Shown here: in pieces, positions 29,663-49,420 of the stretch | Layout: the number at the start of each line of letters is the position of its first letter | Position numbering within the stretch: the stretch's first letter is position 1 | Assembly: GCA_030913385.1 (NCBI GenBank) | Contig: CP133159.1 | Location: forward strand, 766,584-830,583 | From: Cytophagaceae bacterium ABcell3 | GTDB lineage: Bacteria; Bacteroidota; Bacteroidia; Cytophagales; Cytophagaceae | Length of the DNA: 64,000 nt | Direction: 5' to 3' | Program-made: the position numbers and the translations under genes | The notes under the pieces: model-generated | The model's input: only the letters and a program-made list of their open reading frames with translations | The model's database searches: none | Told to the model about the DNA's origin: nothing

Positions 29663-29880
29663 AAAAACAGCCACATAGGTGGCAATGGGAAAGGTATGCC
29701 TATACGTCAATAAAAACAGCTTTAAAAGGTCCAAAAAAAGCAAATTGAGGCAGTAAATTTAACTTATAGACCCAAAACTGCGAAATCTTAATTTGCAAAA
29801 AGCTGCATTGGCCCTCAATTCTAACCTACAGAAAACCCCAACCCAGAACAGCAATCCCCATAGCGTTACCCCCGGTTTCG

Positions 29881-29937
29881 TACAACACTGGCTTCATTGT
29901 GGGCATTACATACCCAACGAAGCCTTAGTTGTTGTGA
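29881..29937. other. Short attC-like hairpin at the IS91 right end
   Basis: Same hairpin as at 16696; here its GTT is the core of GTTGTGA, the boundary of the next cassette. Confidence 0.6.
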
Positions 29938-29946
29938 GCTGTATTA

Positions 29947-31065: not shown

Positions 31066-31082
31066 ATTTTTACTGATATAGC

Positions 31083-31212
31083 TCACAACGTTGATATATG
31101 CCTCGGTGGGGGATTTCAAAGCAGTTAATTATCCACCGATACCAAAGTAAGATAATGAGAAACAGCCTGACTTACAATACCCGCCCCCACTGAGGTATAT
31201 ATACTGTTATGC
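31083..31212 (-). other. attC-like site
   Basis: R'' CTCACAAC, R' GTTATGC. Arms ATATGCCTCGGTGGGGG and CCCCCACTGAGGTATAT. Confidence 0.88.
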
Positions 31213-32106
31213 GGACGGCTTTATTTTCTGTTCGTTATTCATCTTCTCATGATTTGGAATAAAAATATCTACACTTCCAAATGAGAGTTTGTTGAAATAA
31301 TTTGGGTTTTCAATATTATGCGTATTTGTCAAAAGTAATGGCAAAATAGCTACAAGTCCAATTATTACCGTTACACTATGTTTCGGATATTTTGCGATTA
31401 CAAAAAGCAGCAATGCTGCACCAACTGCAAGCCCTATCTTTTCCCCATCAGAAAGTTTTATTGAGGAAATAAGTTCTGCGGTTTTTTGAAAATTTTCATG
31501 TTGAACTTCCTTTTTACTGTTCTCAAATTCTGCTGGCGCAATAAATCCACTGTAAACCCCAAAAAAAATGTCACTACTTGAAATATCGTTGCCAACAATA
31601 AGTGCACGAGGCATTAATAATTTTTTATTTCCGATAATATGAGGCAAAGAACTTTCTCGTTTGTCCTGCTTAGATGTTTCAGTTTTTAGGCTGGGGTATG
31701 TCAAGGAGTTCAAAAAATTTTTTCCCTTAACTGGGTGTGTATGAAATTTTACAGGAAGATAACCTTGTGAAAAAAGTTCGTTTAAGGCTTGATTTAATTG
31801 TATTCTGTCAGACAAATAGGCGTTTGATTTATTTCGGCCATCATTTCTCGGATTATCTTCAATAGCATTTCTAATGTAGCTTACTTTGTCAATAATGAGA
31901 ATAAATTCTTCATTTTTTCTAGTTGGCTTCGCCCATAGAACACCACCTATTTCTTCGTCTGTTTTATAGTTTCTTTTTAAGTCAGACACAATTTCTTCAT
32001 TTACTCGAAATCTGCATGGCGTACTCAAATGAAATAGTTCATCGTCATCAACAGTCCTTGTTTCTAGGAAACCTGCGTTTTTATATTCTATTAGTTTTTG
32101 TTCCAT
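31207..32106 (-). CDS. JAMM/MPN metalloprotease with C-terminal membrane anchor
   Basis: A 299-residue protein. Residues 51-59 EEIGGVLWA provide the Glu, residues 122-125 HTHP the zinc-binding pair and S145-K-Q-D148 the Ser/Asp of a JAMM (Mov34/MPN) motif. JAMM enzymes cleave ubiquitin-like or peptide bonds and occur in bacterial defence and sulfur-carrier pathways. Two hydrophobic segments (GLAVGAALLLFVIA and VTVIIGLVAILPLLL) follow the catalytic domain, suggesting a membrane-anchored enzyme. No E1/E2 or ubiquitin-like partner is next to it. The stop codon overlaps the attC-like core. Confidence 0.7.
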   Translation of the reverse strand: MEQKLIEYKNAGFLETRTVDDDELFHLSTPCRFRVNEEIVSDLKRNYKTDEEIGGVLWAKPTRKNEEFILIIDKVSYIRNAIEDNPRNDGRNKSNAYLSDRIQLNQALNELFSQGYLPVKFHTHPVKGKNFLNSLTYPSLKTETSKQDKRESSLPHIIGNKKLLMPRALIVGNDISSSDIFFGVYSGFIAPAEFENSKKEVQHENFQKTAELISSIKLSDGEKIGLAVGAALLLFVIAKYPKHSVTVIIGLVAILPLLLTNTHNIENPNYFNKLSFGSVDIFIPNHEKMNNEQKIKPSA

Positions 32107-32149
32107 TCTAATTCAGGTATATATTGGGTAGTGTCTTTATTCTAGCTGC

Positions 32150-32282
32150 CGCCTAACGGTTTGCAGCTACAAGAAGTTGGCGATTTCGAAGCACTTCACT
32201 GTCAAACAAGCACAAACTTTGATAGAATCACAAAGCTTGATTTGAACACTGAATCGCCACTTTTGGGTAGCTGCTGTTAGCG
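32150..32282 (-). other. attC-like site
   Basis: R'' GCCTAAC, R' GTTAGCG. Arms GCAGCTACAAGAAGTTGGCGA and TCGCCACTTTTGGGTAGCTGC. Confidence 0.9.
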
Positions 32283-32289
32283 TGTCGTT

Positions 32290-32781
32290 TTATTCTTTTC
32301 TCTTTATAAATTTCAATAAGTCATTTTTATCTTCTGTAAAATTGATTGTCGAAACAAGCTTTTTATCTTCAGTTAAGATTGCGAAATGTGGTTGATGCCC
32401 GGTTTTAGTTAATTCTATCTGTAACTGACTATTCAATTTTCCGATAGTTCTTAACGTGTCTTTGGAAAATTCGCTTTGTTTCCAGAGCTCTTGTTCTGCT
32501 GGTGTCCGGTCATCAACCATTAAAGTAATGAAAATATATTCTTCAAGTATTGCATCCTTAATTTTTGAATTTTCATTTATCATTTCTTCCATTTTTCGAC
32601 AATTGACGCAAGCTATACTGGAAAAATAAAGCAATACGGTCTTGTTTTCCTGTTTTGCTTTTTCAAGTGTTTTATTTAAATCGAAATTTTCATAGCCTAT
32701 AAATGAAATGTTCTTTTCAACACTAGTTTTACAACTTGATAATTACACTGCTAAAGTCAGTATAAATATTGTTTGCTTCAT
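32290..32781 (-). pseudogene. Thioredoxin-like lipoprotein with in-frame stop in signal
   Basis: From ATG the frame reads MKQTIFILTLAV, TAA (32743-32745), then LSSCKTSVEK and a thioredoxin-like domain with FSSIACVNCRKM (CxxC redox pair). The LSSC is a lipobox, so this is a lipoprotein of thiol-disulfide function whose signal peptide is interrupted by one ochre codon, one base from TTA Leu. The remainder is intact to the stop (…LLKFIKRKE). Without read-through the product would lack export. Confidence 0.75.
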
Positions 32782-32797
32782 TGTCTTTTTAAATGCA

Positions 32798-32928
32798 CGC
32801 TAACGTTAAGTATAAAAAACGGGCAGCGGTTTTAAAAGCAGTAACTATCCATGAAACCGCAGCCAGAGAAAAGAACTAAAGGCTCCGCTACCACCAAACC
32901 CGCTGCTCTTTTTTATATATTGTTGTCG
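32798..32928 (-). other. attC-like site
   Basis: R'' GCTAAC, R' GTTGTCG. Arms TATAAAAAACGGGCAGCGG and CCGCTGCTCTTTTTTATAT. Close relative of the site at 51337. Confidence 0.88.
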
Positions 32929-33334
32929 GTAGCTATTTTAACCTTAATCTTTTATTGTTATCTAAATAATGGGTAAACTTGGATTTAAATTCATCATCTT
33001 TATTAAAAATCCCAGGGTATCCATACACAATTTCTTCATAAGGCATACCGTCTTTAGCATATTCCACAAAAAGAGTTGGAATTGCATTATAAGGATCAGG
33101 TTCCATATCGTAGTCTACAATATAGTCATATGGAATTCTAAGGAATGGGTTAATAATAATTTTTTTGTAATTAGCATTATTTATTCTGTCATCTCCGTTC
33201 CTATCTAACAAGTCCCAATTCCCATCTTTGTCTATTATTGCTTCCTGACCCATTGATATTAATTCTAATCCATTGTCATAAAAATCCCAACATTCTCCTT
33301 TAAACGTAAGCCTTCGGGCAAGTGCATGTTGATT

Positions 33335-34789
33335 TTATAATTTTACCCACTTCCCGGGTAGCAGTTCTTCCAGCCTGTTTACCGGGTGATTGTCTATTCT
33401 TTCCAGAACATCTTTCATCCATTCCAATGGGTTTACACCGTTGATTTTGCAGCTTGCCACAAGCGAGTATATTTGGGCGGCTCTCTGGGCAGCATCATGT
33501 GAACCGGCAAACAGATAATTTTTCCTTCCTATGGCTACTGGCCTTATTGAGTTTTCCACCAGATTGTTATCTATCTCCAGCTTGCCATCCTCAAGATATA
33601 TGGAGAGCCTTTCCCATCTGCTCAAGGAGTATTCGAGCGCCTTTCCAATAGGACTCCTAGGGGCAATATTAGGGTACAGGTTTTTCATCCATTCTTCCAG
33701 GTCGTCCAATGTTGTTTTTGCATCAAGCCTTGATTCCTTTCTTTCTTCAAAAGACATCCCGGCCTCCCTTGCTTTACGCTCAATATCATATAACTTCTGA
33801 AATTCTTTCAAGGCATGTTCTGCATTTTCTTTGTCATTGTCCAATGCTTTCTCAAACATCCTTCTGGCATGTGCCATACAATGGAACAATGTTATGCCCT
33901 TGATGTTGGCAAACATATCATATACGTTATACCCGTCACATTGCAGGTATCCCTGAAAACCCTTCAGTATATCTGATGGCCCTTCGCTCCCGCGCCCGGG
34001 ACGATAGTCGAACAGCACCTGTTTCCCGACAGGGTCATAATATACCCAGTAATACCCCCGGTGGATTTTACTTTTTTTATCCTTGTCGAGAACTTTTATG
34101 GGTGTCTCGTCTGCCATCAGGTAACCGGCTTGCAGTGTCCTCTTTTTATGCAGTTCGTATAAGATTTTAAGCTTGTTTACCCCTTGTTTTACCCAGTCTG
34201 ACATTGTGGAAGAAGGAAAATTAAGGCCTTCTCTCTTAAATATCTGTATCTGGCGGTATAAAGGAAGGTGGTCAACATACTTGCTGACAACAAGGAAAGC
34301 GACAAGGCTTGCTCCGGCTATCCCTTTCTCTATCGCCCTGTATGGCAATTCTCCAATGGCAACACCCTCCCCTTCAGGTTTTGCGTATTTCGGGCGTACA
34401 ATTTTGCGCACATGAAACTTTCCGGTGGTATATTCAAGAACCTCTGTCACCTCTTCCCCAATTTTTTTCATGCCTGAGGTATCTTCTTCAGGCTCAACAA
34501 TCTCTTCCACCCTTGGTACATGTGCCGGTATAGGGAGGCGGCCCGGGTGCTTGCGGGCTGTTTCTTTTTTGACACGCTTAAACCTGACGACCTCCTCTTT
34601 TTCAGGGGCAGTTGCCTGCTCTTCACCAAGTCCCAGGTTTAACTGTTCCGGTGCGGACGAAGGCACAAAACGCTCGCTTTTGGTGCCATATATGAGGCGC
34701 TTCAGCTCTTTGAGCTCAAACTTCAAAAGTGCGATCTCGGACATCGCCTCCTCATATTTTTCTTTATAGTCTATACCTTCGGCAAGCAT
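33335..34789 (-). CDS. tnpC: IS66 transposase TnpC
   Basis: A 484-residue DDE transposase: N-terminal coiled coil (EKYEEAMSEIALLKFELKEL), zinc-finger-like linker, catalytic MADETPIKVL (Asp), LQCDGYNVYD (Asp) and KLEIDNNLVENSIRPVAIGRKNYLF with the Glu. Full length. Confidence 0.94.
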   Translation of the reverse strand: MLAEGIDYKEKYEEAMSEIALLKFELKELKRLIYGTKSERFVPSSAPEQLNLGLGEEQATAPEKEEVVRFKRVKKETARKHPGRLPIPAHVPRVEEIVEPEEDTSGMKKIGEEVTEVLEYTTGKFHVRKIVRPKYAKPEGEGVAIGELPYRAIEKGIAGASLVAFLVVSKYVDHLPLYRQIQIFKREGLNFPSSTMSDWVKQGVNKLKILYELHKKRTLQAGYLMADETPIKVLDKDKKSKIHRGYYWVYYDPVGKQVLFDYRPGRGSEGPSDILKGFQGYLQCDGYNVYDMFANIKGITLFHCMAHARRMFEKALDNDKENAEHALKEFQKLYDIERKAREAGMSFEERKESRLDAKTTLDDLEEWMKNLYPNIAPRSPIGKALEYSLSRWERLSIYLEDGKLEIDNNLVENSIRPVAIGRKNYLFAGSHDAAQRAAQIYSLVASCKINGVNPLEWMKDVLERIDNHPVNRLEELLPGKWVKL

Positions 34790-34845
34790 GTTGCAAAGAT
34801 AAATAATATACCTATGTAGGTGGTATTAGGAAAAAAAGAATAAGT

Positions 34846-35205
34846 TTAAAGATTTCCAGGACTTTTATATCTTTTGCGGTGCCTGACCGACTCAAGGGAA
34901 ATCCCTTGTAAGACCAGTTGCAATACCGAGGCGGATATTTCAGATTTGGTCACATTTTTGCAATGGACAGGTATTTCATAAGTCCCTCTTTCAAGGCGTT
35001 TGTGATACATACTGAAACCGTCGCCTTCCCATAAAAGGAGCTTGACATGGTTTCGGTTTCGGTTCAGGAAAATAAAAATGTCCCCGTTCATGGGGTTTTC
35101 GTTAAGTTTGCTCCTTACAATACCTGATAGGCTGTCAAACCCTTTCCGCATGTCGGTTTTGCCCGAATAGAGAAAGTACCTGCACTGGTGAGACAATGAA
35201 AGCAT
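34846..35205 (-). CDS. tnpB: IS66 accessory protein TnpB
   Basis: A 119-residue protein with the IS66 Orf2 signature: FLYSGKTDMRKGFDSLSGIV, GDIFIFLNRNRNHVKLLLWE, GFSMYHKRLERGTY. Needed for IS66 transposition in related elements. Confidence 0.95.
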   Translation of the reverse strand: MLSLSHQCRYFLYSGKTDMRKGFDSLSGIVRSKLNENPMNGDIFIFLNRNRNHVKLLLWEGDGFSMYHKRLERGTYEIPVHCKNVTKSEISASVLQLVLQGISLESVRHRKRYKSPGNL

Positions 35206-35207
35206 GG

Positions 35208-35507
35208 CTAGCTGACTAATTGTTTAACAAATGATGGATCTGCCATGCCGTGGAATATGACCTTGGCACCGGAAGGAAAGACAACTTCCATGTTGCCGGC
35301 CGCAGGGTTAATTTCATCAGGGCTGCTTACTTTCAGAGGGACAAATCCGGTACCGGGCTCCTCTGTTCTATATTTGCCGCACCAATAGATGAATTTTTGA
35401 TAATTGATGTTCTGCCGAAGGCTAAATTCTTTTTTACTGATACCGCTTTGTTGCCAGAGCTGATAAAGCTCACGCATCTGGTCAGATACTTTTGTGTTTG
35501 TTGCCAT
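35208..35507 (-). CDS. tnpA: IS66 accessory protein TnpA
   Basis: A 99-residue small helix-turn-helix-type protein (WQQSGISKKEFSLRQNINYQKF) at the IS66 Orf1 position, 2 nt before tnpB. Confidence 0.88.
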   Translation of the reverse strand: MATNTKVSDQMRELYQLWQQSGISKKEFSLRQNINYQKFIYWCGKYRTEEPGTGFVPLKVSSPDEINPAAGNMEVVFPSGAKVIFHGMADPSFVKQLVS

Positions 35508-36334
35508 TATTTTGCTGTTATAGTTTGTAATGCAAACTTATGGCGTTATTTTTTGGGAATAAAGATGTACTTGGCCGTAGGTATACCTTTAAACCAAGTA
35601 CTCATTTCTCCATATTTCGATTCCTTAGCATCTGGCCATGTATTATCATCTACTGACCTTATTATAATATTGTGATATTTAAATCTTATATATGGCTCAT
35701 AGATGGCTCGTCTCCATAACGGTTTATCTAATTCTTCTAGTAAATCTTTTTTTAATCTTTTCTTTAAGGTAAGATTGCGTTTAACTCTTACTGCATTTGA
35801 TTTGGACTTTAATATTGTTTTGGAGAGATGTTGTTGCTCTAATACAACCCTTATCTGTTCTATTTTCTTTGTTGGAAGTTTATTAATGAACATTAATAAA
35901 TCTTTAAAGTCTATAATATGCTTGCCTTCATCAAAAATAAAATCTTCTTTACTTATAAATTTTTTATATCTTTTTTGTTTATTCCCCAAGATTAACAAAA
36001 ATAGTTCATCATATTTTGCTTCTAACTTGTTTTCAAAAAACTTATTGAGTGTTTCTTGTATTTTAACAGAACTATTAGTAGAGGTAACTTGAACAGCTAT
36101 TTTATTATAATCATCTGCTAAATCTATTGCTGGGTAGTTCTTAAAAGAAGAATTAATATTTGCAAGTTGATAATCAAAAATTGAATTTAAAATCTCACAT
36201 ATAGAAGATTCAGAAAACAAATTAGCATCATATAAACTCAGTGAATTTAAATTTTGGATTTGAACTTGCCACCTTGCAAATTCATTAGATATAGCTTTTA
36301 ACTCAAATTCCCGTTTATTCATATTTTTAGTTAC

Positions 36335-36465
36335 CGACAACGTTCCGTGTAACCGATGCTGGGGATTTTAAAAGCAGTTCCTTATCCACCGGCAGAAAGA
36401 AAGATAGAGAGAAAACGCCTGACTTACAAGCTTCAGCCCCCAGTATTGGTTACACATTGTTCTCG
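36335..36465 (-). other. attC-like site
   Basis: R'' CGACAAC, R' GTTCTCG. Arms GTGTAACCGATGCTGGGG and CCCCAGTATTGGTTACAC, complementary with one small bulge. Confidence 0.9.
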
Positions 36466-36488
36466 GCTGGTTTTATTATTCTTCCAGT

Positions 36489-36809
36489 TCAGGCAATGTC
36501 CATTTTTTGATTTAACAATTCCACGTTAAAGCTGATTTTAGCATTTAGAGCTTTAAATACCTTTATTATTGTTTCAAATCGGGCATCGGTCAAGCTATTT
36601 TCTAATTTTGAAATTTGAGCTTTTTTAACTCCTACAAGTTCTCCTAATTGTTCCTGAGTCAAATTTCTTTCTTTTCTTGCTTTTTTAATCGCTTCCCCAA
36701 TTAAATCAAGTTGTAATTCATACTCAAATGCCTCACGTTTAGGAGTCCCTCTTTCCCCAATATGTTTATCTGTTATCTCTTCAAGGGTATATTTTTTTAT
36801 TTTTTTCAT
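36489..36809 (-). CDS. HigA-like XRE antitoxin
   Basis: A 106-residue protein with a C-terminal Cro/CI helix-turn-helix (RNLTQEQLGELVGVKKAQISKLENS). It follows the toxin gene with a 4-nt overlap; toxin-first order is typical for HigBA-type modules. Confidence 0.88.
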   Translation of the reverse strand: MKKIKKYTLEEITDKHIGERGTPKREAFEYELQLDLIGEAIKKARKERNLTQEQLGELVGVKKAQISKLENSLTDARFETIIKVFKALNAKISFNVELLNQKMDIA

Positions 36810-37153
36810 TTTAAATTATCTTTTTGTTCAAAGTATAATTTTCTAATCCGTTCAGCTTTATCAAGGTCTCCCGAGGGAGTTTTGCCTGTTTTTTTTATAA
36901 GTCCATGCGTTGAAATCACAACAGTGCTGGACTTATCTGACTTATCCCAGAAAGCAAAAAGTCTGTAATATGTCTTCTTATACAATGTTCTGAATTCCCA
37001 GATTTCGCCCGAAAGTTTCTTAAAAAGCTCATTATCATTTATTATTTGAGCTTTCCGGATGTTAAAGATTATCTTTTCCCTTGCTTTATCATCCAAACTA
37101 TCAAGAAATTCCGCAGCCTCTTCCAGAAACTCTACTTTAAATTTCTGTTCCAA
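36806..37153 (-). CDS. HigB-like RelE-superfamily toxin
   Basis: A 115-residue protein of the RelE/HigB (Gp49-like) type: FLEEAAEFLDSLDDKAREKI, LSGEIWEFRTLYKKTYYRLFAFWD and a C-terminal KTPSGDLDKAERIRKLYFEQK. Such toxins cleave ribosome-bound mRNA. The HigBA pair is a single cassette flanked by two attC-like sites. Confidence 0.9.
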   Translation of the reverse strand: MEQKFKVEFLEEAAEFLDSLDDKAREKIIFNIRKAQIINDNELFKKLSGEIWEFRTLYKKTYYRLFAFWDKSDKSSTVVISTHGLIKKTGKTPSGDLDKAERIRKLYFEQKDNLK

Positions 37154-37233
37154 TTATTTAACGTTTGTACGAAGGTAAAAGTTTCTTAATAAGGAAACAA
37201 TTGTTTGGGTGGGATTTTTTTATTCTAACTTGC

Positions 37234-37357
37234 CGAGAACGTGGAGTATAACCGAGGCTGGGCACTTTTGAAGCAGTTCCTATCCGCCGGCAGAAAGAAA
37301 GATAGAGAAAAAAACGTTGAACTACAACGACCGCGCCCAGTCTTGGTTATACAATGT
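37234..37357 (-). other. attC-like site with two tandem introns at R'
   Basis: R'' GAGAAC; arms GTATAACCGAGGCTGGGC and GCCCAGTCTTGGTTATAC. The 3' arm ends ACAATGT, then two introns follow head to tail; the right exon resumes TATGC at 41113, rebuilding GTTATGC. Confidence 0.92.
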
Positions 37358-39206
37358 GTGCGCCCAGTATGGGCATCAGGTATCGAAGATACCATATTAT
37401 TCCAGAGGGTGCAAGTCCCTTACAGGCGAGTTGGTGAAGCCTGTTAGCAAGTGGCAAGGTGGTTTACCGTGAGGTATGCACTGAAGAAAGCCAAACGGCA
37501 AAATCCGGTACTGACGAACAGGTTCGGTATACAGAGGCCAGTCGAGAAGGGTAAGCAAGCACATCTTTGCAAAGCCCCTGACCAACAATTCTCAACTGGT
37601 AGATACCGCAGGAATCGGAGGAAGGAATATGCCCTTACCTGGGGAGGTCTCTCAGATTACGTGTTAATCAGGGAGAAGTCAGTCCCGATAGCTATCGGGA
37701 TCGTAGTAGTTGTTTAGAAACGAGCCGTAAGAGCTACGGAGGTCTCACAGGATGATGAAGGACGAACGCTGAATCGTATCTGAATTCGGTCAGGAATGCG
37801 CCATGGCGGATAGCCTGTCCTTAAACAGACAAAGGAAAACTATGATAGAAAAAGTATTACAGCCTAAAAACCTGACCAGAGCATTGCAAAGAGTAATCAG
37901 CAATAAAGGGGCAGCAGGTATAGACAACATGACGGTAAAGGACCTGAAAGCTTTCGCTGACGAGAACCGCACCGCCATTGCCAGCTCTATACTGAACAGG
38001 ACGTATATACCCAAACCTGTCAAAGGGGTAGAAATACCCAAAGGTAAAGGGAAAACCAGAATGCTTGGAGTCCCGACAGTAACAGACCGGTGGCTGCAAC
38101 AAGCCGTAGGACGTCAGCTGGCTGCAAAATTCGAGCTGGATTTTGAAGAGTCCAGCTATGGTTTCCGGCCAAAGAAGAACCTTCATCAGGCAGTCCGCAA
38201 AGCACTGAAATACATCAATGATGGATATCAGGACATTGTGGACATAGACCTGAAAAGCTTTTTCGATGAGGTAAGCCACTGTAAACTGTTACAGCTTATT
38301 TACAACAAGATGAAATGCCCTGACACCCTGTGGTTGATCCGAAAGTGGTTACGTGTGCCGATCCTGATAGACGGGAAACTCCATAAACGGAGAAAAGGAG
38401 TGCCACAGGGCAGCCCGCTGAGTCCGCTTCTGTCCAATATTTTTCTGGATGAACTGGATAAAGAACTCAAGAAAATGGGCGTCCGGTATGTGCGCTATGC
38501 AGATGATTTCAGTATCTATACAAAATCAAAAGCAGAAGCAAAAAGGATTGGTAACAAGGTTTACCTTTTCCTGAAAGACAAACTGGAACTCCCAATCAAC
38601 AGAGAGAAAAGCGGGATACGCAGGCCTTCAACCTTCACCCTGCTGGGTCATGGTTTTGTACCAACCTATCAGAGAGGAGAAAAAGGCAAATATCAGCTTG
38701 TAGTAAAGAAAGAAAGTTGGGGAAACCTGAAACGCGAACTCAAATGGCTCACCAAAAAGACCAGCCCGTGCAGTCTGGAAAACCGGTTACGAAAGCTTAA
38801 AGAAGTGTGGAAAGGATGGGTGAACAACTACCGTCTGGCAAGTATTCACGGAAAACTGAAAGCACTTGATGAATGGTTGAGAAACCGGTTGAGATACTGC
38901 ATATGGCATGACTGGAAGAAGCCGGAGAGGAAACGAAAGAACCTTATCAGACTGGGAGTTGAACAAGGGATGGCATATGCCTGGAGCAGGACGAGAATGG
39001 GAGGCTGGGCTGTAGCTCAAAGTCCTATTCTTAAAACTACTATTACCTTGTCAAGGCTCAGAAGAAGAGGCTACGAGTCAATGTTGGATTATTACCTGAA
39101 ATACCGTCCCCAGATTCAGTGAACCGCCGTATACGAGACCCGTACGTACGGTGGTGTGAGAGGCGCACTCTGCCAGTTTTCTAGCTGGCAGAGCCGTCTA
39201 CTCGAT
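37358..39206 (+). mobile_element. Group II intron (IIC-attC type), intact copy
   Basis: Starts GTGCGCCCAGTATGGGC (GUGYG-type 5' end) and ends CTACTCGAT. A domain V-like hairpin, CCGTATACGAGACCCGTACG, and a domain VI-like CTCTGCCAG/CTGGCAGAG stem precede the 3' end. Carries a full RT-maturase ORF. Inserted at the R' core of an attC-like site. 1849 bp. Confidence 0.9.
37803..39122 (+). CDS. ltrA: Group II intron reverse transcriptase/maturase
   Basis: A 439-residue RT: early motif AAGIDNMTV, SSYGFRPKKN, DIDLKSFFDEV, GVPQGSPLSPLLSNIFLDELD and the active-site VRYADDFSIY. A maturase (GIIM) domain follows (WKGWVNNYRLASIHGKLKALDEWLR, RRRGYESMLDYYLKYRP). No HNH endonuclease is present, as in class C introns, which use hairpin DNA targets and nicked or replicating DNA. 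Confidence 0.95.
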   Translation: MADSLSLNRQRKTMIEKVLQPKNLTRALQRVISNKGAAGIDNMTVKDLKAFADENRTAIASSILNRTYIPKPVKGVEIPKGKGKTRMLGVPTVTDRWLQQAVGRQLAAKFELDFEESSYGFRPKKNLHQAVRKALKYINDGYQDIVDIDLKSFFDEVSHCKLLQLIYNKMKCPDTLWLIRKWLRVPILIDGKLHKRRKGVPQGSPLSPLLSNIFLDELDKELKKMGVRYVRYADDFSIYTKSKAEAKRIGNKVYLFLKDKLELPINREKSGIRRPSTFTLLGHGFVPTYQRGEKGKYQLVVKKESWGNLKRELKWLTKKTSPCSLENRLRKLKEVWKGWVNNYRLASIHGKLKALDEWLRNRLRYCIWHDWKKPERKRKNLIRLGVEQGMAYAWSRTRMGGWAVAQSPILKTTITLSRLRRRGYESMLDYYLKYRPQIQ

Positions 39207-39651
39207 GTGCGCCCAGTATGGGCATCAGGTATCGAAGATACCATATTATTCCAGAGGGTGCAAGTCCCTTACAGGCGAGTTGGTGAAGCCTGTTAGCAAG
39301 TGGCAAGGTGGTTTACCGTGAGGTATGCACTGAAGAAAGCCAAACGGCAAAATCCGGTACTGACGAACAGGTTCGGTATACAGAGGCCAGTCGAGAAGGG
39401 TAAGCAAGCACATCTTTGCAAAGCCCCTGACCAACAATTCTCAACTGGTAGATACCGCAGGAATCGGAGGAAGGAATATGCCCTTACCTGGGGAGGTCTC
39501 TCAGATTACGTGTTAATCAGGGAGAAGTCAGTCCCGATAGCTATCGGGATCGTAGTAGTTGTTTAGAAACGAGCCGTAAGAGCTACGGAGGTCTCACAGG
39601 ATGATGAAGGACGAACGCTGAATCGTATCTGAATTCGGTCAGGAATGCGCC

Positions 39652-40848
39652 ATGGCGGATAGCCTGTCCTTAAACAGACAAAGGAAAACTATGATAGAAA
39701 AAGTATTACAGCCTAAAAACCTGACCAGAGCATTGCAAAGAGTAATCAGCAATAAAGGGGCAGCAGGTATAGACAACATGACGGTAAAGGACCTGAAAGC
39801 TTTCGCTGACGAGAACCGCACCGCCATTGCCAGCTCTATACTGAACAGGACGTATATACCCAAACCTGTCAAAGGGGTAGAAATACCCAAAGGTAAAGGG
39901 AAAACCAGAATGCTTGGAGTCCCGACAGTAACAGACCGGTGGCTGCAACAAGCCGTAGGACGTCAGCTGGCTGCAAAATTCGAGCTGGATTTTGAAGAGT
40001 CCAGCTATGGTTTCCGGCCAAAGAAGAACCTTCATCAGGCAGTCCGCAAAGCACTGAAATACATCAATGATGGATATCAGGACATTGTGGACATAGACCT
40101 GAAAAGCTTTTTCGATGAGGTAAGCCACTGTAAACTGTTACAGCTTATTTACAACAAGATGAAATGCCCTGACACCCTGTGGTTGATCCGAAAGTGGTTA
40201 CGTGTGCCGATCCTGATAGACGGGAAACTCCATAAACGGAGAAAAGGGGTGCCACAGGGCAGCCCGCTGAGTCCGCTTCTGTCCAATATTTTTCTGGATG
40301 AACTGGATAAAGAACTCAAGAAAATGGGCGTCCGGTATGTGCGCTATGCAGATGATTTCAGTATTTACACAAAATCAAAAGCAGAAGCAAAAAGGATTGG
40401 TAACAAGGTTTACCTTTTCCTGAAAGACAAACTGGAACTCCCAATCAACAGAGAGAAAAGCGGGATACGCAGGCCTTCAACCTTCACCCTGCTGGGTCAT
40501 GGTTTTGTACCAACCTATCAGAGAGGAGAAAAAGGCAAATATCAGCTTGTAGTAAAGAAAGAAAGTTGGGGAAACCTGAAACGCGAACTCAAATGGCTCA
40601 CCAAAAAGACCAAACCGTGCAGTCTGGAAAACCGGTTACGAAAGCTTAAAGAAGTGTGGAAAGGATGGGTGAACAACTACCGTCTGGCAAGTATTCACGG
40701 AAAACTGAAAGCACTTGATGAATGGTTGAGAAACCGGTTGAGATACTGCATATGGTATGACTGGAAGAAGCCGGAGAGGAAACGAAAGAACCTTATCAGA
40801 CTGGGAGTTGAACAAGGGATGGCATATGCCTGGAAGGGCGGAACGTGA
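39652..40848 (+). pseudogene. Group II intron RT/maturase, C-terminus disrupted
   Basis: A 398-residue reading frame identical to the first maturase apart from a few residues (TKKTKPC, WYDWKK). It ends AYAWKGGT at the hairpin element; MGGWAVAQSPILKTT and the remaining C-terminus follow after the insertion. The RT domain and YADD are intact, but the C-terminal DNA/RNA-binding end is lost. Confidence 0.88.
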
Positions 40849-40900
40849 AGAAAATCTCCTGTGGAGATTTTTAGTGACGAGCCAGCCTGCAGGGAGGGTA
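40834..40900 (+). repeat. 60-bp hairpin element in intron 2
   Basis: GGCGGAACGTGAAGAAAATC, CTGTGGAGATTTTTAGTGAC, GAGCCAGCCTGCAGGG. In intron 1 the same position holds AGCAGGACGA. Confidence 0.85.
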
Positions 40901-41133
40901 GAATGGGAGGCTGGGCTGTAGCTCAAAGTCCTATTCTTAAAACTACTATTACCTTGTCAAGGCTCAGAAGAAGAGGCTACGAGTCAATGTTGGATTATTA
41001 CCTGAAATACCGTCCCCAGATTCAGTGAACCGCCGTATACGAGACCCGTACGTACGGTGGTGTGAGAGGCGCACTCTGCCAGTTTTCTAGCTGGCAGAGC
41101 CATCTACTCGATTATGCACTGGCTTTCTTGTCT

Positions 41134-41685
41134 TTACAGCCATTTTCCGATAATTATTTTAACGCCAAAATGGTTTCCCCACGTTGTTTGTCCATTGTCA
41201 TAAGCGAAATAAGTTCCGCCTAATTGAAGTCCAAATGTCATAGCAAAATTATTGTCAAACAGCAAGTTGTATCCAGGTTCTATCCAAAGTCCTAGGTTAT
41301 TATGTTCTTCAATTCTATTTCTAGTCACACTCAAAATTGGCGCAACAAAAAATCCCTTGGAGATTTCGTTTTGAGTTTCCTTCTGTTTAAAAAATATGGG
41401 CAAACCTGTCTCAAACCCAAAGTGACTGATTTCGTTTCCACTGTTTCTTATTCCAAGATTTACTATTGAAGAAAATCTGATGTCAAGTCTCTTTGTCAGA
41501 GTTCTTTGATAAACAAGTGGAAAAATATTTATGTCCAATTCTCCTTTGTCATAGAATGGTTCAACTGTCACGCTTGGGTTTAAGCCGATGAAGTTAAGTT
41601 TTTTGTCTTCTTGGGCAAAAAGTGGGGTCTTACAAACTATTAAGAATGTCGTTAGAATTATTATTTGCTTTGTTACTCTTTTCAT
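41134..41685 (-). CDS. Outer-membrane-type beta-barrel cassette protein
   Basis: A 183-residue exported protein. Start MKRVTKQIIILTTFL chosen because it begins a clear signal peptide ending TPLFAQ; the longer frame runs into the attC-like site. The mature part alternates strands (DINIFPLVYQRTLTKRLDIRF, GLWIEPGYNLLFDNNFAMTF, WGNHFGVKIIIGKWL) like small outer-membrane barrels. Function unknown. Its cassette lies between an intron-filled site and the next attC-like site. Confidence 0.72.
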   Translation of the reverse strand: MKRVTKQIIILTTFLIVCKTPLFAQEDKKLNFIGLNPSVTVEPFYDKGELDINIFPLVYQRTLTKRLDIRFSSIVNLGIRNSGNEISHFGFETGLPIFFKQKETQNEISKGFFVAPILSVTRNRIEEHNNLGLWIEPGYNLLFDNNFAMTFGLQLGGTYFAYDNGQTTWGNHFGVKIIIGKWL

Positions 41686-41714
41686 TGTCACGTCTTTTTG
41701 TCTCTTAAGCTGGT

Positions 41715-41871
41715 GCATAACGTTATTATAAGAAAAGTGCCGGGATTTAAAGAGCGTTCCTATCCTCCGGTAGCACGCCAGCACGCCTTATAAAAATAAT
41801 AAAATTGTGCGGGTTTTATAGATCTGCTCTCAACTCTTATTCTGAAGCCAGGCATTTTTTTTATAAATTGA
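41715..41871 (-). other. attC-like site with intron 3 at R'
   Basis: R'' GCATAAC; arms TTATAAGAAAAGTGCCGGG and CCAGGCATTTTTTTTATAA. Longer inner part (CACGCCTTATAAAAATAATA) shared with the site at 52124. The core beside the intron (TTGA / TCCATGC) is diverged from GTT. Confidence 0.75.
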
Positions 41872-42327
41872 GTGCGCCCAGTATGGGCATCTGGTATCGA
41901 AGATACCAGATTATTCCAGAGGGTGCAATGCCTGTCCCGAATCTTCTTCGGGATCCCTTACAGGCGAGTTGGTGAAGGCTGTTAGCAAGTGGCAAAGCCT
42001 GTCCCGAAAGCCTTCGGGAGTGGTTTACCGTGAGGTATGCACTGAAGAACTGCGAAGCATCTCATGAACACCTTATAAAATAAACACCCGTGAATAAAGC
42101 CAAACGGCAAAATCCGGTACTGCGGCCATACACGGGAGTGTATGGAGCGAGACATGCGGGCTGGGATTCGGTATACAGAGGCCGGTTGAGGAGGGTAAGC
42201 AAGCACGACCTGTCCCGAACGCTTTCGGGATCTTTGTAACGCCCCTGACCAACAATTCTCAACTGGTAGATACCGCAGGGGGCCGAATACGGGAGTATGA
42301 GGAGCCAGCAGGCGGGGAGCTACCTGT

Positions 42328-42392
42328 AGGGCTGAGCGTTAAGAAAACTTCCAGTGGAAGTTTTTAGCGAAGAGCCAGCTTGCAGGGCAGGG
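42328..42392 (+). repeat. 60-bp hairpin element in intron 3 (a)
   Basis: GGGCTGAGCGTTAAGAAAAC, TTCCAGTGGAAGTTTTTAGC, GAGCCAGCTTGCAGGG. Lies where intron 1 has about 50 bp of unrelated leader sequence. Confidence 0.82.
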
Positions 42393-42776
42393 CAGGCTAC
42401 GTGATAGCCAGTGAGAAGTCAGTCCCGATAGCTATCGGGATCGTAGTAGTCACCGGAACACGAGCCGGCACCGGAAGGATAAAGCCGGAGGTCTCATAAA
42501 AGTGATGAAGGACGAACGCTGAATCGTATCTGAATTCGGTCAGGAATGCGCCATGGCGGATAGCCTGTCCTTAAACAGACAAAGGAAATTATGATAGAAA
42601 AAGTATTACATCCTAAAAACCTGACCAGAGCATTGCAGAGAGTAATCAGCAATAAAGGGGCAGCAGGTATAGACAACATGACGGTAAAGGACCTGAAAGC
42701 TTTCGCTGACGAGAACCGCACCGCCATTGCCAGCTCTATACTGAACAGGACGTATATACCCAAACCTGTCAAAGGG

Positions 42777-42840
42777 AGGGTTGAGCGTTAAGAAACTTTC
42801 CTGAGGAAAGTTTTAGCGAAGAGCCAGCCTGCAGGGAAGG
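42777..42840 (+). repeat. 60-bp hairpin element in intron 3 (b)
   Basis: Interrupts the RT ORF after PKPVKG; intron 1 has GTAGAA at this point between CAAAGGG and ATACCC. Confidence 0.85.
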
Positions 42841-43020
42841 ATACCCAAAGGTAAAGGGAAAACCAGAATGCTTGGAGTCCCGACAGTAACAGACCGGTGG
42901 CTGCAACAAGCCGTAGGACGTCAGCTGGCTGCAAAATTCGAACTGGATTTTGAAGAGTCCAGCTATGGTTTCCGGCCAAAGAAGAACCTGCATCAGGCAG
43001 TCTGCAAAGCACTGAAATAT

Positions 43021-43085
43021 AGGGCTGAGCGTGAAGAAAACTTCCTGTGGAAGTTTTTAGCGAGGAGCCAGCCTGCAGGGGGAGG
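43021..43085 (+). repeat. 60-bp hairpin element in intron 3 (c)
   Basis: Sits exactly at the junction of the ~490-bp deletion of the RT core: left flank GCACTGAAATA, right flank AGCTTGTAGTAAAG. Confidence 0.87.
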
Positions 43086-43385
43086 AGCTTGTAGTAAAGA
43101 AAGAAAGTTGGGGAAACCTGAAACGCGAACTCAAATGGCTCACCAAAAAGACCAGCCCGTGCAGTCTGGGAAACCGGTTACGAAAGCTTAAAGAAGTGTG
43201 GAAAGGTTGGGTGAACAACTACCGGTTGGCAAGTATTCACGGAAAACTGAAAGCTCTTGATGAATGGTTGAGAAACCGGCTGAGATACTGCATATGGTCC
43301 CGATAACTATCGGGAGAAAAAGCCGGAGAGAAAACGAAAGAACCTTATCAGACTGGGAGTTGAACAAGGGATGGCATATGCCTGG

Positions 43386-43452
43386 AAGGGCGGAACGTGA
43401 AGAAAATCTCCTGTGGAGATTTTTAGTGACGAGCCAGCCTGCAGGGAGGGTA
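43386..43452 (+). repeat. 60-bp hairpin element in intron 3 (d)
   Basis: Same sequence and position as the element in intron 2, so the two copies share this insertion by descent or conversion. Confidence 0.87.
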
Positions 43453-43674
43453 GAATGGGAGGCTGGGCTGTAGCTCAAAGTCCTATTCTTAAAACCACTA
43501 TTACCTTGTCAAAGCTCAGAAGAAGAGGCTACGAGTCAATGTTAGATTATTACCTGAAATACCGTCCCCAGATTCAGTGAACCGCCGTATACGAGACCCG
43601 TACGTACGGTGGTGTGAGAGGCGCACTCTGCCAGTTTTCTAGCTGGCAGAGCCGTCTACTCGATTCCATGCTGG

Positions 43675-44547
43675 CTATTTTATTTCCGATAACCTTGTTA
43701 CTTTGTTATTTACAAGAACTTCAGGATTTACTATTCTTGATTTAGTCTTAATATCGTTATTACCTAATCCTTTAAGAGTTAATTCCCCGATATGCTTCTT
43801 CAAGTTCATGATCTTTTCAATTTTTTCAATCAAATAAAAATCATCTTCATAAAAATCGCTTATCTCAATTGTTCCCTCTCTTAGGCAGTTTTTAATAATT
43901 TGCTTCATTACTGTATTGATCAGCTTACTCTCTTCTCCTCCAAAATATGCGGTATTTAGATAATTATACTTTGACTGAAACCATTTTCCATATTCTTCAG
44001 ATTTAAGCACAACTCTATTTTCATGAGTTATCAGTCCATCCAAAAACCAATCAATTTCATTTGTTGATATTTTACCAATCTGAAATAAGTCTCTCAAGGT
44101 ATAATCGATCCTATCTGCGGATAAATATGGCAATGGATACTCTAAGATATGGTATTGCTCAATTTTTGAGAATTGATTCATTGTAAATCCATACTTTTCA
44201 AGAATTAAAAACAGTTCCCGATTTTGTAAAACCTCTTCATACCTTCTCTCATGAAAATCTTCTTCTTCAATTTCTAAAACATAGTCAATCAGATGAGAAA
44301 AAGCTGTATGTGAAATATCATGAAGTAATCCTGCAATTTGTTCTTCGATATTCCCTCCTAACCTTTTAATTAGAAGCATTACTCCTACGGAATGCTCAAA
44401 TCTTGTGTGATTTATTTTATTATTAACTAAAAATAGAGCCCCTCCTTGATGAATTTTCCTGAGTCTCTGGAAAACACCCGTTGAAATAAGTTCTTCAATA
44501 ACTCCTGAAAGTTCACATTTTCCATATAGTTTATCGGTATACTTCAT
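43675..44547 (-). CDS. HD-domain phosphohydrolase
   Basis: A 290-residue protein with HD-superfamily motifs: NHTRFEHSVGVMLL (His), LLHDISHTAFSH (HD pair), and YLSADRIDYTLRD (distal Asp). The layout is that of SAMHD1/dNTPase-like HD hydrolases (QRLRKIHQGG at the start is the substrate-loop region). Candidate dNTP or nucleotide hydrolase; such enzymes also act in phage defence, which is inference here. Single gene in its cassette. Confidence 0.83.
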   Translation of the reverse strand: MKYTDKLYGKCELSGVIEELISTGVFQRLRKIHQGGALFLVNNKINHTRFEHSVGVMLLIKRLGGNIEEQIAGLLHDISHTAFSHLIDYVLEIEEEDFHERRYEEVLQNRELFLILEKYGFTMNQFSKIEQYHILEYPLPYLSADRIDYTLRDLFQIGKISTNEIDWFLDGLITHENRVVLKSEEYGKWFQSKYNYLNTAYFGGEESKLINTVMKQIIKNCLREGTIEISDFYEDDFYLIEKIEKIMNLKKHIGELTLKGLGNNDIKTKSRIVNPEVLVNNKVTRLSEIK

Positions 44548-44561
44548 TTTCTTTAGCTTGC

Positions 44562-44693
44562 ATGGAACGTTTTGGCGCTTGGCGAAGAAGCGGATTTCGA
44601 AGCACTAAACTGTCTGCCAGCACTGAACTTGATACGAAGTACAAAGCTTCATTTAAACACTGAACCCGCTTTTTTGCCAAACGCCTGTTGGTG
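44562..44693 (-). other. attC-like site
   Basis: R'' ATGGAAC, R' GTTGGTG. Arms GGCGCTTGGCGAAGAAGCGG and CCCGCTTTTTTGCCAAACGCC. Confidence 0.87.
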
Positions 44694-44719
44694 GCTGGTT
44701 TTATGTCCGCAATATAGTC

Positions 44720-45943
44720 TCAATGATTTTCAAGAATCTTGTCAGCTTTTATTGTGCCAAATATTTTGTCATCAATTTTCATCTGAAAGAATTCAATGTC
44801 TTTTTCTTCTCTAATCTCTTCCGTTTTTTCACCTGTCCATTGGTGTTTATAAGTTATGCATTTTCTGTCTTTCAGTATGCTTTTTATTGTTTGCTTGTCT
44901 TTGTCAGAACATTTTACGCTAAAATAGACGGCTTCGATGCAATTTGATATTGGCAAAGAAATGTGAGAATCACGGTTTGTCGGATTGTAATATAAAAGTC
45001 GCAGTTCATTTTCATACTTCCAAGCTTCTCCTTTTACAAAAAACGCATCCTTCGTGTTTATAGAATTTTGTTGGGAATATTTTTTCAAATCTGAAGTGTA
45101 CTCGACATCTTTGAAGTAAGCCACATAGTTTTTATTATCATTGCCTGTGGTTGTTACATGACTAGGAAAATTATATTTTATACAAATCCCATTATGTGAA
45201 TCGGCATAATGAGACCACATTAATTCATTAAGATATTCCTCTTCATCTCTTTCATTCTTTTTGTCATCTCTTATCAAATCGTCTCCATTTTCATTGGGAT
45301 ATGGTAGTTTTTCGTTTTTTACAAAACACGCCACCTTTACACCACTTAAATATGCTTCTCTTATAAATTTTGAAACCTCATCCTCGTTATTCATTAATTC
45401 GATTATAGGACAATCAAAAATATCGTTGAAAGTTGTGGGTGAAGAAAGATTTAATGTATCATTAATTAATGATTGGAAAAGAAATTTAGAACAATTACGA
45501 AATGAATAGCAAGTCAAACTGCTGTAACTTGTATGATTAGAAAGGGTTAATTGATAGTATATGTATTTTTTGAATGCATCGATAGCCATATTATTGTACA
45601 ACTGCCCCAATTTGTGCCAACATAATCCAAGATTACCATAAAGAGCTAATTTTATCTCGAACATATACTGCACTTTGCTTACATATTCTTCTATCTCTTT
45701 AATTAAAGTGTCAATAGTACCTTCTGTGATAGGATTTATATCGGCAAGAGCAGCTGAAAAAATGACAAGAACATTTCCATATTCTCTTTCTCCATCTTTA
45801 CCACCTACCATATAACCAACGACATTCTTCCAAGTAGAATAATTATTCAAAAAATCATCTACAGCTTGTTGAGCATTAGAGTCTGTTATCTTTTCGTTGT
45901 AATTATTAAAGTATGTTTGAATATTATTCATTTCTGTTTGCAT
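44720..45943 (-). CDS. DUF2971 domain protein
   Basis: A 407-residue protein. The C-terminal half matches DUF2971: LSSPTTFNDIFDCP, LNELMWSHYADSHNGICIKY, AFFVKGEAWKYENELRLLY and a final KHQ region. The N-terminal 150 residues are helical with TPR-like character. Function unknown; DUF2971 proteins are frequent cassette or island cargo. Starts MQTEMNN, with MNNIQTY as an alternative. Confidence 0.85.
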   Translation of the reverse strand: MQTEMNNIQTYFNNYNEKITDSNAQQAVDDFLNNYSTWKNVVGYMVGGKDGEREYGNVLVIFSAALADINPITEGTIDTLIKEIEEYVSKVQYMFEIKLALYGNLGLCWHKLGQLYNNMAIDAFKKYIYYQLTLSNHTSYSSLTCYSFRNCSKFLFQSLINDTLNLSSPTTFNDIFDCPIIELMNNEDEVSKFIREAYLSGVKVACFVKNEKLPYPNENGDDLIRDDKKNERDEEEYLNELMWSHYADSHNGICIKYNFPSHVTTTGNDNKNYVAYFKDVEYTSDLKKYSQQNSINTKDAFFVKGEAWKYENELRLLYYNPTNRDSHISLPISNCIEAVYFSVKCSDKDKQTIKSILKDRKCITYKHQWTGEKTEEIREEKDIEFFQMKIDDKIFGTIKADKILENH

Positions 45944-45995
45944 TAGCAGTCATTTTTATAGTTTGTTTTGTCGGTGTGGGTCGTCCGTAAACTTG

Positions 45996-46128
45996 CCACC
46001 AACGTGAGCATATGGCATGGCCAGCAGATTTTAAAGCAGTAAACTATCCACCGCAACAGAAGATAGATTAAAACCCTGAAGTATCGGCTTCTACTGAACC
46101 TGCTGGTCTGCTATATGCATTGTTGGTG
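45996..46128 (-). other. attC-like site
   Basis: R'' CCACCAAC, R' GTTGGTG. Arms GCATATGGCATGGCCAGCAG and CTGCTGGTCTGCTATATGC. Near twin of the site at 49279. Confidence 0.9.
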
Positions 46129-46233
46129 GCTGTTTACTTTATTATATTTCTCTTGTATACCTACGGCCAAGTACATCTTTATTCCCAAAAAATAACGCCA
46201 TAAGTTTGCATTACAAACTATAACAGCAAAATA

Positions 46234-46533
46234 ATGGCAACAAACACAAAAGTATCTGACCAGATGCGTGAGCTTTATCAGCTCTGGCAACAAAGCGGTA
46301 TCAGTAAAAAAGAATTTAGCCTTCGGCAGAACATCAATTATCAAAAATTCATCTATTGGTGCGGCAAATATAGAACAGAGGAGCCCGGTACCGGATTTGT
46401 CCCTCTGAAAGTAAGCAGCCCTGATGAAATTAACCCTGCGGCCGGCAACATGGAAGTTGTCTTTCCTTCCGGTGCCAAGGTCATATTCCACGGCATGGCA
46501 GATCCATCATTTGTTAAACAATTAGTCAGCTAG
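46234..46533 (+). CDS. tnpA: IS66 accessory protein TnpA
   Basis: Identical to the TnpA of copy 1 (99 residues). Confidence 0.88.
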   Translation: MATNTKVSDQMRELYQLWQQSGISKKEFSLRQNINYQKFIYWCGKYRTEEPGTGFVPLKVSSPDEINPAAGNMEVVFPSGAKVIFHGMADPSFVKQLVS

Positions 46534-46535
46534 CC

Positions 46536-46895
46536 ATGCTTTCATTGTCTCACCAGTGCAGGTACTTTCTCTATTCGGGCAAAACCGACATGCGGAAAGG
46601 GTTTGACAGCCTATCAGGTATTGTAAGGAGCAAACTTAACGAAAACCCCATGAACGGGGACATTTTTATTTTCCTGAACCGAAACCGAAACCATGTCAAG
46701 CTCCTTTTATGGGAAGGCGACGGTTTCAGTATGTATCACAAACGCCTTGAAAGAGGGACTTATGAAATACCTGTCCATTGCAAAAATGTGACCAAATCTG
46801 AAATATCCGCCTCGGTATTGCAACTGGTCTTACAAGGGATTTCCCTTGAGTCGGTCAGGCACCGCAAAAGATATAAAAGTCCTGGAAATCTTTAA
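46536..46895 (+). CDS. tnpB: IS66 accessory protein TnpB
   Basis: Identical to the TnpB of copy 1 (119 residues). Confidence 0.95.
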   Translation: MLSLSHQCRYFLYSGKTDMRKGFDSLSGIVRSKLNENPMNGDIFIFLNRNRNHVKLLLWEGDGFSMYHKRLERGTYEIPVHCKNVTKSEISASVLQLVLQGISLESVRHRKRYKSPGNL

Positions 46896-46951
46896 ACTTA
46901 TTCTTTTTTTCCTAATACCACCTACATAGGTATATTATTTATCTTTGCAAC

Positions 46952-48406
46952 ATGCTTGCCGAAGGTATAGACTATAAAGAAAAATATGAGGAGGCGATGT
47001 CCGAGATCGCACTTTTGAAGTTTGAGCTCAAAGAGCTGAAGCGCCTCATATATGGCACCAAAAGCGAGCGTTTTGTGCCTTCGTCCGCACCGGAACAGTT
47101 AAACCTGGGACTTGGTGAAGAGCAGGCAACTGCCCCTGAAAAAGAGGAGGTCGTCAGGTTTAAGCGTGTCAAAAAAGAAACAGCCCGCAAGCACCCGGGC
47201 CGCCTCCCTATACCGGCACATGTACCAAGGGTGGAAGAGGTTGTTGAGCCTGAAGAAGATACCTCAGGCATGAAAAAAATTGGGGAAGAGGTGACAGAGG
47301 TTCTTGAATATACCACCGGAAAGTTTCATGTGCGCAAAATTGTACGCCCGAAATACGCAAAACCTGAAGGGGAGGGTGTTGCCATTGGAGAATTGCCATA
47401 CAGGGCGATAGAGAAAGGGATAGCCGGAGCAAGCCTTGTCGCTTTCCTTGTTGTCAGCAAGTATGTTGACCACCTTCCTTTATACCGCCAGATACAGATA
47501 TTTAAGAGAGAAGGCCTTAATTTTCCTTCTTCCACAATGTCAGACTGGGTAAAACAAGGGGTAAACAAGCTTAAAATCTTATACGAACTGCATAAAAAGA
47601 GGACACTGCAAGCCGGTTACCTGATGGCAGACGAGACACCCATAAAAGTTCTCGACAAGGATAAAAAAAGTAAAATCCACCGGGGGTATTACTGGGTATA
47701 TTATGACCCTGTCGGGAAACAGGTGCTGTTCGACTATCGTCCCGGGCGCGGGAGCGAAGGGCCATCAGATATACTGAAGGGTTTTCAGGGATACCTGCAA
47801 TGTGACGGGTATAACGTATATGATATGTTTGCCAACATCAAGGGCATAACATTGTTCCATTGTATGGCACATGCCAGAAGGATGTTTGAGAAAGCATTGG
47901 ACAATGACAAAGAAAATGCAGAACATGCCTTGAAAGAATTTCAGAAGTTATATGATATTGAGCGTAAAGCAAGGGAGGCCGGGATGTCTTTTGAAGAAAG
48001 AAAGGAATCAAGGCTTGATGCAAAAACAACATTGGACGACCTGGAAGAATGGATGAAAAACCTGTACCCTAATATTGCCCCTAGGAGTCCTATTGGAAAG
48101 GCGCTCGAATACTCCTTGAGCAGATGGGAAAGGCTCTCCATATATCTTGAGGATGGCAAGCTGGAGATAGATAACAATCTGGTGGAAAACTCAATAAGGC
48201 CAGTAGCCATAGGAAGGAAAAATTATCTGTTTGCCGGTTCACATGATGCTGCCCAGAGAGCCGCCCAAATATACTCGCTTGTGGCAAGCTGCAAAATCAA
48301 CGGTGTAAACCCATTGGAATGGATGAAAGATGTTCTGGAAAGAATAGACAATCACCCGGTAAACAGGCTGGAAGAACTGCTACCCGGGAAGTGGGTAAAA
48401 TTATAA
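46952..48406 (+). CDS. tnpC: IS66 transposase TnpC
   Basis: 484 residues, full length, same catalytic motifs as copy 1; differs at one visible residue. Confidence 0.94.
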   Translation: MLAEGIDYKEKYEEAMSEIALLKFELKELKRLIYGTKSERFVPSSAPEQLNLGLGEEQATAPEKEEVVRFKRVKKETARKHPGRLPIPAHVPRVEEVVEPEEDTSGMKKIGEEVTEVLEYTTGKFHVRKIVRPKYAKPEGEGVAIGELPYRAIEKGIAGASLVAFLVVSKYVDHLPLYRQIQIFKREGLNFPSSTMSDWVKQGVNKLKILYELHKKRTLQAGYLMADETPIKVLDKDKKSKIHRGYYWVYYDPVGKQVLFDYRPGRGSEGPSDILKGFQGYLQCDGYNVYDMFANIKGITLFHCMAHARRMFEKALDNDKENAEHALKEFQKLYDIERKAREAGMSFEERKESRLDAKTTLDDLEEWMKNLYPNIAPRSPIGKALEYSLSRWERLSIYLEDGKLEIDNNLVENSIRPVAIGRKNYLFAGSHDAAQRAAQIYSLVASCKINGVNPLEWMKDVLERIDNHPVNRLEELLPGKWVKL

Positions 48407-49183: not shown

Positions 49184-49278
49184 AATTATTAATTTTCAGC
49201 TAATTTGTAAAAAAGCCTTATCTCATTCCAAATATGTTCTTTTTTTTCACTTTTTTGAAGAGTTGGAGTTTCAAATAG

Positions 49279-49410
49279 CCACCAACGTGAGCATATGGCA
49301 TGGCCAGCAGGTTTTAAAGCACTAAACTATCCACCGAAACTGAAGATAGATAAAGCTGTAAAGTTTCGGAAACCACAGAACCTGCTGGTCTGCTATATGC
49401 ATTGTTAGCA
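49279..49410 (-). other. attC-like site
   Basis: R'' CCACCAAC, R' GTTAGCA. Arms as in the site at 45996, with the inner loop diverged. Confidence 0.9.
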
Positions 49411-49420
49411 GCAGGTTTTA

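Follow-up and report, generated by a model that had tools for sequence, protein, structure and literature searches.

Tandem group IIC introns at an attC-like hairpin site in a Bacteroidota cassette array

Results

The DNA analysed here (the window) is a stretch of 64,000 nucleotides from the 5.115-Mb, single-contig genome of Cytophagaceae bacterium ABcell3. On its + strand two group II introns of 1849 and 1906 nt stand head to tail between a left exon ending ...ATACAATGT and a right exon opening with TATGC. The left exon (37234..37357, + strand) is an attC-like hairpin site with its left arm starting at about GAGAACG and its right arm ending ...GGTTATACAATGT; its hairpin score is 26 (controls median 13), and the joined site folds with a z of -3.2 (DNA parameters). 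Intron copy 1 (37358..39206, + strand) is apparently intact, with ends GTGCGCCC...CTCGAT, and copy 2 (39207..41112, + strand) follows with zero bases between the two (39206/39207). The right exon TATGCACTGG... (41113..41125, + strand) is the start of the next cassette, whose other end near 41715 carries the inverted repeat GTGCATAAC. Joining GGTTATACAATGT to TATGCACTGG rebuilds an empty site, ...ACAATGT|TATGC. The cassette to the left of the introns (36489..37153, - strand), with HTH_3 antitoxin-like and Gp49-like genes, is antisense to them. The initial annotation placed the insertion point within an attC R' core; the GTTATGC box is indeed split exactly, but read along the cassette genes (- strand) it is R'' (GCATA^AC), not R'.

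Copies 1 and 2 are identical over their first 1041 nt, and copy 2 departs from copy 1 in a few substitutions and in a palindrome of 57 nt inserted after copy-1 position 1627. Both match RF02001 at 112.7 bits (cut-off 32). Matches to RF00029 (D5-D6; cut-off 40) at 40.1 bits in copy 1, 40.7 in copy 2 and 40.1 in a decayed third copy identify the catalytic D5 and branch-point D6 expected of group IIC. With exact junctions and both RNA models matched in each copy, the reading of the locus as a tandem of two near-identical introns of 1.85-1.9 kb is borne out. Copy 1 encodes a reverse transcriptase (RT)/maturase of 439 aa (37803..39122, + strand; TIGR04416 356 bits, cut-off 300) in which Pfam shows RVT_1 and GIIM only and no endonuclease domain, as had been proposed. 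The RT frame of copy 2 (39652..40848, + strand) ends at 398 aa because of the palindromic insert, and only copy 1 of the tandem retains the full 439-aa frame.

The solved structures nearest to this RT by phmmer were 7uim, 6ar1, 5hhl and 5hhj (316-237 bits), which we take to be class C, followed by LtrA (138 bits) and 6me0 (106 bits). Trees were built from 38, 41 and 25 RTs, the second omitting L184 (partial) and L112, the third L187, L188, L205 and some of the Bacteroidota rows. With few references in each, the window RTs and the class-C-like RTs stood apart from other RTs in the 38-RT tree (support 85/70) and in the 25-RT tree (90/75), the split being unresolved in the 41-RT tree. RT phylogeny had been suggested as a check on class C, and in these trees of class-C-like and other RTs, with their few reference RTs, the window RTs were not placed outside that class. 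RT tree, RNA models and target site (below) agree, which supports assignment of the introns to group IIC.

The window RTs belong to a mostly Bacteroidota clade (support 100/98 to 100/99), in which the rows labelled otherwise are MAGs named Marinimicrobia, Actinomycetota, Williamsia and Scytonema. Four class 1 integron introns, which we take to be S.ma.I2-type group IIC-attC, lie antisense to the cassettes, three adjoining intI1 (L182, L183, L201) and one amid resistance cassettes (L206); their RTs clustered with those of terminator-inserted introns from the window's own genome and with other RTs. Forcing the Bacteroidota and class 1 integron RTs into one clade cost 19.2 log units (p-AU 0.0245, with only two distinct reference sub-lineages). 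Because the group was defined after the first tree had been seen and long branches are present, this value is moderate evidence that the lineage forms a mostly Bacteroidota clade of its own, distinct from the class 1 integron IIC-attC RTs. Membership in the known IIC-attC clade, implied by the initial reading, was not upheld: the clade is separate (100/99) and the union was rejected.

Target sites were compared across 78 RT loci of other genomes, of which 67 yielded a left intron end and 64 a right one; three of the left ends lay too close to a contig end for 6 nt to be read, and five lacked the 190 nt upstream needed for the hairpin test. The left exon ended in TGT at 60 of the 64 readable sites, and in full TTGT at 18/64, weaker than the published TTGT/T. 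Right exons began with T in 64/64 (partly built into the search pattern), with TR in 58/64 and with TRRRY in 5/64. The hairpin score measured how well the final 30 nt of the left exon matched, as reverse complement, the 154 nt upstream. Its median reached 22 for 62 joined sites, as against 13 for 620 control TGTT sites taken from the same loci (p 6e-27), and scores of at least 22 were reached by 33/62 intron sites as against 2/620 controls. Eight of the lowest intron-site scores were 10-14, and some of these sites resemble short terminator-type hairpins. The longest ORF was antisense to the intron on the right side in 56/62 cases and on the left in 41/55. Insertion at TGT|T past a hairpin, antisense to the cassettes, therefore extends from the window to its relatives, and strand-preferring targeting of a folded hairpin is supported. 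Published IIC-attC introns are described, in the portion of PMC7923331 available to us, as using the bottom strand at R'' with TTGT/T, opposite to the cassettes.

In the window's own genome, two IIC introns that are nearly identical to each other and belong to a different lineage (L001 at genome position 1987341 and L002 at 2974830; G000 in our numbering) lie right behind terminator-like hairpins with T-runs. The possibility that most copies lie at non-hairpin sites, named at the outset as a ground for rejection, is contradicted for the present lineage (62 sites against 620 controls). Since IIC introns also use terminators, an insertion does not prove attC; the earlier claim that the introns confirm the folding of these palindromes as attC was not supported. 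What they indicate is a hairpin able to fold, with one strand favoured.

The array of attC-like hairpin sites spans 18574..52284 (+ strand), and the window holds 16 strong TGT|T sites on the + strand and one on the - strand. No match above the TIGR02249 cut-off for IntI was present in the window's genome, and IntI exceeded it in 84/296 sampled genomes of the phylum and in 1/73 of the window's class (counted by reading the listing). Set against the consensus R'' RYYYAAC / R' GTTRRRY, GTT is the rule. Given that only 5/64 right exons read TRRRY and that IntI is missing above cut-off, the site of the tandem is attC-like rather than a proven attC. Toxin-antitoxin-like genes in cassettes of the window comprise RelE/StbE, PemK/MazF and Gp49 plus HTH_3 (7840-8124, 13373-13696, 36489-37153). 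Two sets of three ORFs, equal in size (484, 119 and 99 aa) and facing opposite ways, at 33335-35507 and 46234-48406, are probably two copies of an insertion sequence.

The hairpin array is bordered at its end by a broken gene for an Xer-like tyrosine recombinase (52957..54428, - strand), which contains a stop and goes out of frame ahead of the catalytic tyrosine; a copy at genome positions 4841868-4843343, 97% identical and intact, is near another intron relic. This enzyme is without the IntI insert. Homologues occur in 9/78 intron loci, each time downstream of the intron and on the - strand, where under one would be expected by chance (a hand estimate from some 27 close members in 59 related genomes); L066 and L095 carry a different recombinase on the + strand. 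In 16 regions around the best recombinase homologues, a few of them overlapping as neighbouring hits, 51 strong sites lay opposite to the gene strand and 16 on the same strand, with at least three strong sites in six regions and at most two in ten. The strand excess was weaker (42 vs 22 strong sites) in 50 intron loci of at least 5 kb with both ends found. One-way hairpin arrays with a linked Xer-like recombinase are suggestive of an integron-like system. A second tyrosine recombinase family, with three similar copies (window 27604-28512; genome positions 4771056 and 4821213), groups separately from the array-linked enzyme in a recombinase tree from which three partial rows were left out.

Alternatively, the hairpins could be ordinary integron attC sites belonging to a CALIN, an array whose IntI has been lost. 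Such an origin would fit the one-way array, the R-box inverted repeats and the IIC introns antisense to the cassettes, and CALINs can carry IIC-attC introns according to the available part of PMC7923331. It sits less well with the scarcity of TRRRY among right exons and of IntI in the class, and with arrays linked instead to a recombinase without the IntI insert, so we consider it a minority possibility, albeit a serious one. As far as PMC9024848 was accessible, it records one complete integron from Bacteroidetes proper (Salinibacter ruber) and, before that, In0 elements.

The third intron copy (41872..43664, + strand) occupies a site next to the tandem, only 760 bp away. It has several palindromic inserts of 20-67 nt and deletions of 321 and 85 nt, with D5-D6 kept, and it has in common with copy 2 the 57-nt insert at the same place and one substitution. 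This shared insert argues against plain duplication of copy 1, and the 1041-nt identity of copies 1 and 2 argues against old independent insertions. Repeated targeting of one exon, the origin first proposed for the tandem, is plausible, with the qualification that conversion between copies may have contributed. Could the tandem be due to recombination by itself, two copies (one being, for example, copy 3) having undergone unequal exchange or gene conversion, with no second retrohoming? The long identity of copies 1 and 2 and the insert common to copies 2 and 3 would be expected of such exchange, but simple duplication would give equal copies, and here one of the pair alone bears the insert; both outer exons are, moreover, intact and exact. 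We regard this origin as the less probable one. Tandems are rare. A search for the junction pattern in 395 class genomes gave one real case, the window's own (the flanks of a further pattern match, in G501, show a chance match), and a second natural tandem, L079, came from a Bacteroidales MAG, its flanking 3' ends identical at 135/141 positions. Circularly permuted introns were weighed as a product of tandems; PMC8637638, in the part available, is silent on that link.

Three miniature copies, all on the + strand, retain the 5' end and D6 of the intron in about 290 nt and have lost D2-D5: 8494..8783 (290 nt), whose left flank shows no hairpin by score, 13062..13353 (292 nt) and 14142..14431 (290 nt), the last 94% identical to its neighbour at 13062 with different exons on both sides. 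At 14142-14200 the 5' hairpin is a perfect 23 bp, as against an imperfect one in the 13062 copy, which resembles templated palindrome correction. Hairpin scores were 24 at the site of copy 3, 26 and 24 at two miniatures and 10 at 8494, and joined-site z values (DNA parameters) ran from the -3.2 of the tandem through -2.5 (13062), -1.2 (14142) and 0.1 (copy 3) to 1.5 (8494), so folding energy alone does not separate all sites.

The miniatures (L115-L117) had no RF00029 match up to E 1, and a search by eye with one fold for a substitute found nothing D5-like; lacking D5, they would be unable to catalyse their own splicing. Four further relics (66056, 68595, 2784601 and 2786253) carry the altered D5 block of the miniatures, which is thus common to seven copies at seven places, suggesting that this form spread after the D5 change, by trans-mobility or by conversion. 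Shrunken copies without the catalytic core seem, from these comparisons, to have spread. We give about even odds to the view that the miniatures are not mobile and that gene conversion brought independent full introns to a single deleted form. The loss of D5 speaks for this, as do the ends of about 170 and 47 nt that miniatures share with other copies; such ends are, however, short for conversion, the altered block stands at seven places, and a Maribacter genome holds ORF-less introns at several sites. A DNA search of 118 genomes, the window's included, with a miniature as query found miniature introns in that genome only, the remaining matches being just palindromes and intron ends.

The Maribacter introns (L053) measure 575, 629, 630 and 660 nt and occupy four sites with different left exons; two of them are 97% identical yet have different exons. 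Three of these four, and the full-length intron of the same genome, carry a palindrome inside D5. As such introns stand at several sites, D5 inserts need not prevent spread. Small palindromes such as TCCCGAAACTTCGGGA split D5 repeatedly (3' ends of L050, L053, L059, L063 and L091; genome positions 4692915-4693055), also in copies with intact RT. A palindromic element of about 60 nt, GAGGGCNGAGCGTTAAGAAA...TTTTAGCGANGAGCCAGCNTGCAGGG, whose stem varies together with its partner, is found both in introns and in apparent coding regions (window 40833-40890, 42343-42410, 42777-42835 and 43020-43080; genome positions 339708, 340019, 886442, 4625902 and 4626367). It had 16 matches in the genome, against 0 for a reversed control, and relatives carry it too.

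Discussion

In summary, we put at roughly 0.8 the probability of the following account: the introns are mobile, belong to a group IIC lineage from Bacteroidota and target the recombination hairpins of cassette arrays; the tandem formed by a further insertion into one 5' exon; and the array is a landing strip where copies decay and shrink. The intron RNA domains, the endonuclease-less RT and the TGT|T junction past a hairpin, mostly antisense to cassette genes, are seen directly in many genomes; splicing and mobility are predicted from sequence. The initial account of the tandem, in which copy 3 and the miniatures went unnoted, was real and for the most part rightly read, subject to the corrections given above.

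By the mechanism that we favour, spliced RNA with its RT would reverse-splice into the folded, single-stranded bottom strand of the site, recognised by a short IBS1 pairing plus the hairpin and by one IBS3 base. As there is no endonuclease, cDNA synthesis would be primed from the replication fork. For the tandem, the likeliest origin is insertion of a second intron into the same 5' exon, the hairpin and TGT remaining intact beside the first; copy 2 may have acquired its mark afterwards by exchange with the decayed copy 3, and copies in the array would go on to decay and shrink.

Like the class 1 integron IIC-attC introns, those described here have an endonuclease-less class-C RT, insert at TGT|T past a folded hairpin and antisense to cassettes, and are similar in D5 and at the 3' terminus (CTACNCGAT|T). 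Unlike them, they form a separate RT clade (p-AU 0.0245, moderate evidence as set out above), have the full TTGT at only 18/64 sites and live in arrays without IntI. The terminator-inserting introns of the same genome (L001, L002) share with them a class-C-like RT, RF02001 and a hairpin upstream of the insertion point, but sit after terminator T-runs and have their RT in another clade. Literature searches had no match for group II introns with attC in Bacteroidetes or for ORF-less or non-autonomous ones; for integrons in Flavobacteri/Bacteroidota and CALINs, no title among the matches listed dealt, for Bacteroidia, with introns or with Xer-like recombinases alongside attC-like arrays.

The part of PMC4424553 available to us describes ORF-less bacterial group II introns as non-autonomous copies in genomes holding a related RT, and group III introns of Euglena chloroplasts as short, composed of part of D1 and D6 with no D5, and spliced from genes. 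Compared with the former, as that source presents them, several copies here occupy several hairpin sites, and those in the window's genome also lack D5. The miniatures share with group III introns, so described, their shortness and their make-up of part of D1 and D6 without D5; they are longer (290 nt) and known from sequence alone, whereas group III introns are spliced from genes.

Going further, we tentatively suggest, as a reading that we hold less likely than its negation, that Bacteroidia possess an undescribed integron-like cassette system. An Xer-like recombinase without the IntI insert, co-oriented with the one-way hairpin arrays, would run it, and an IIC intron lineage specialised on it would live there. 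The introns of this lineage would shed the RT and even D5 yet keep spreading, the catalytic parts being provided in trans, as bacterial analogues of MITEs or group III introns.

Looking forward, the value of the finding lies in a separate lineage, in its shrunken copies and in a pointer to an IntI-less cassette system. A second lineage with attC-type targeting outside the IIC-attC clade would imply either more than one origin of the habit or a greater age than has been supposed. Trans-acting movement of group II introns is a proposed step toward spliceosomal introns, and the miniature and ORF-less copies make movement in trans without RT or D5 testable. The introns may also serve as pointers to IntI-less cassette arrays that integron searches may miss.
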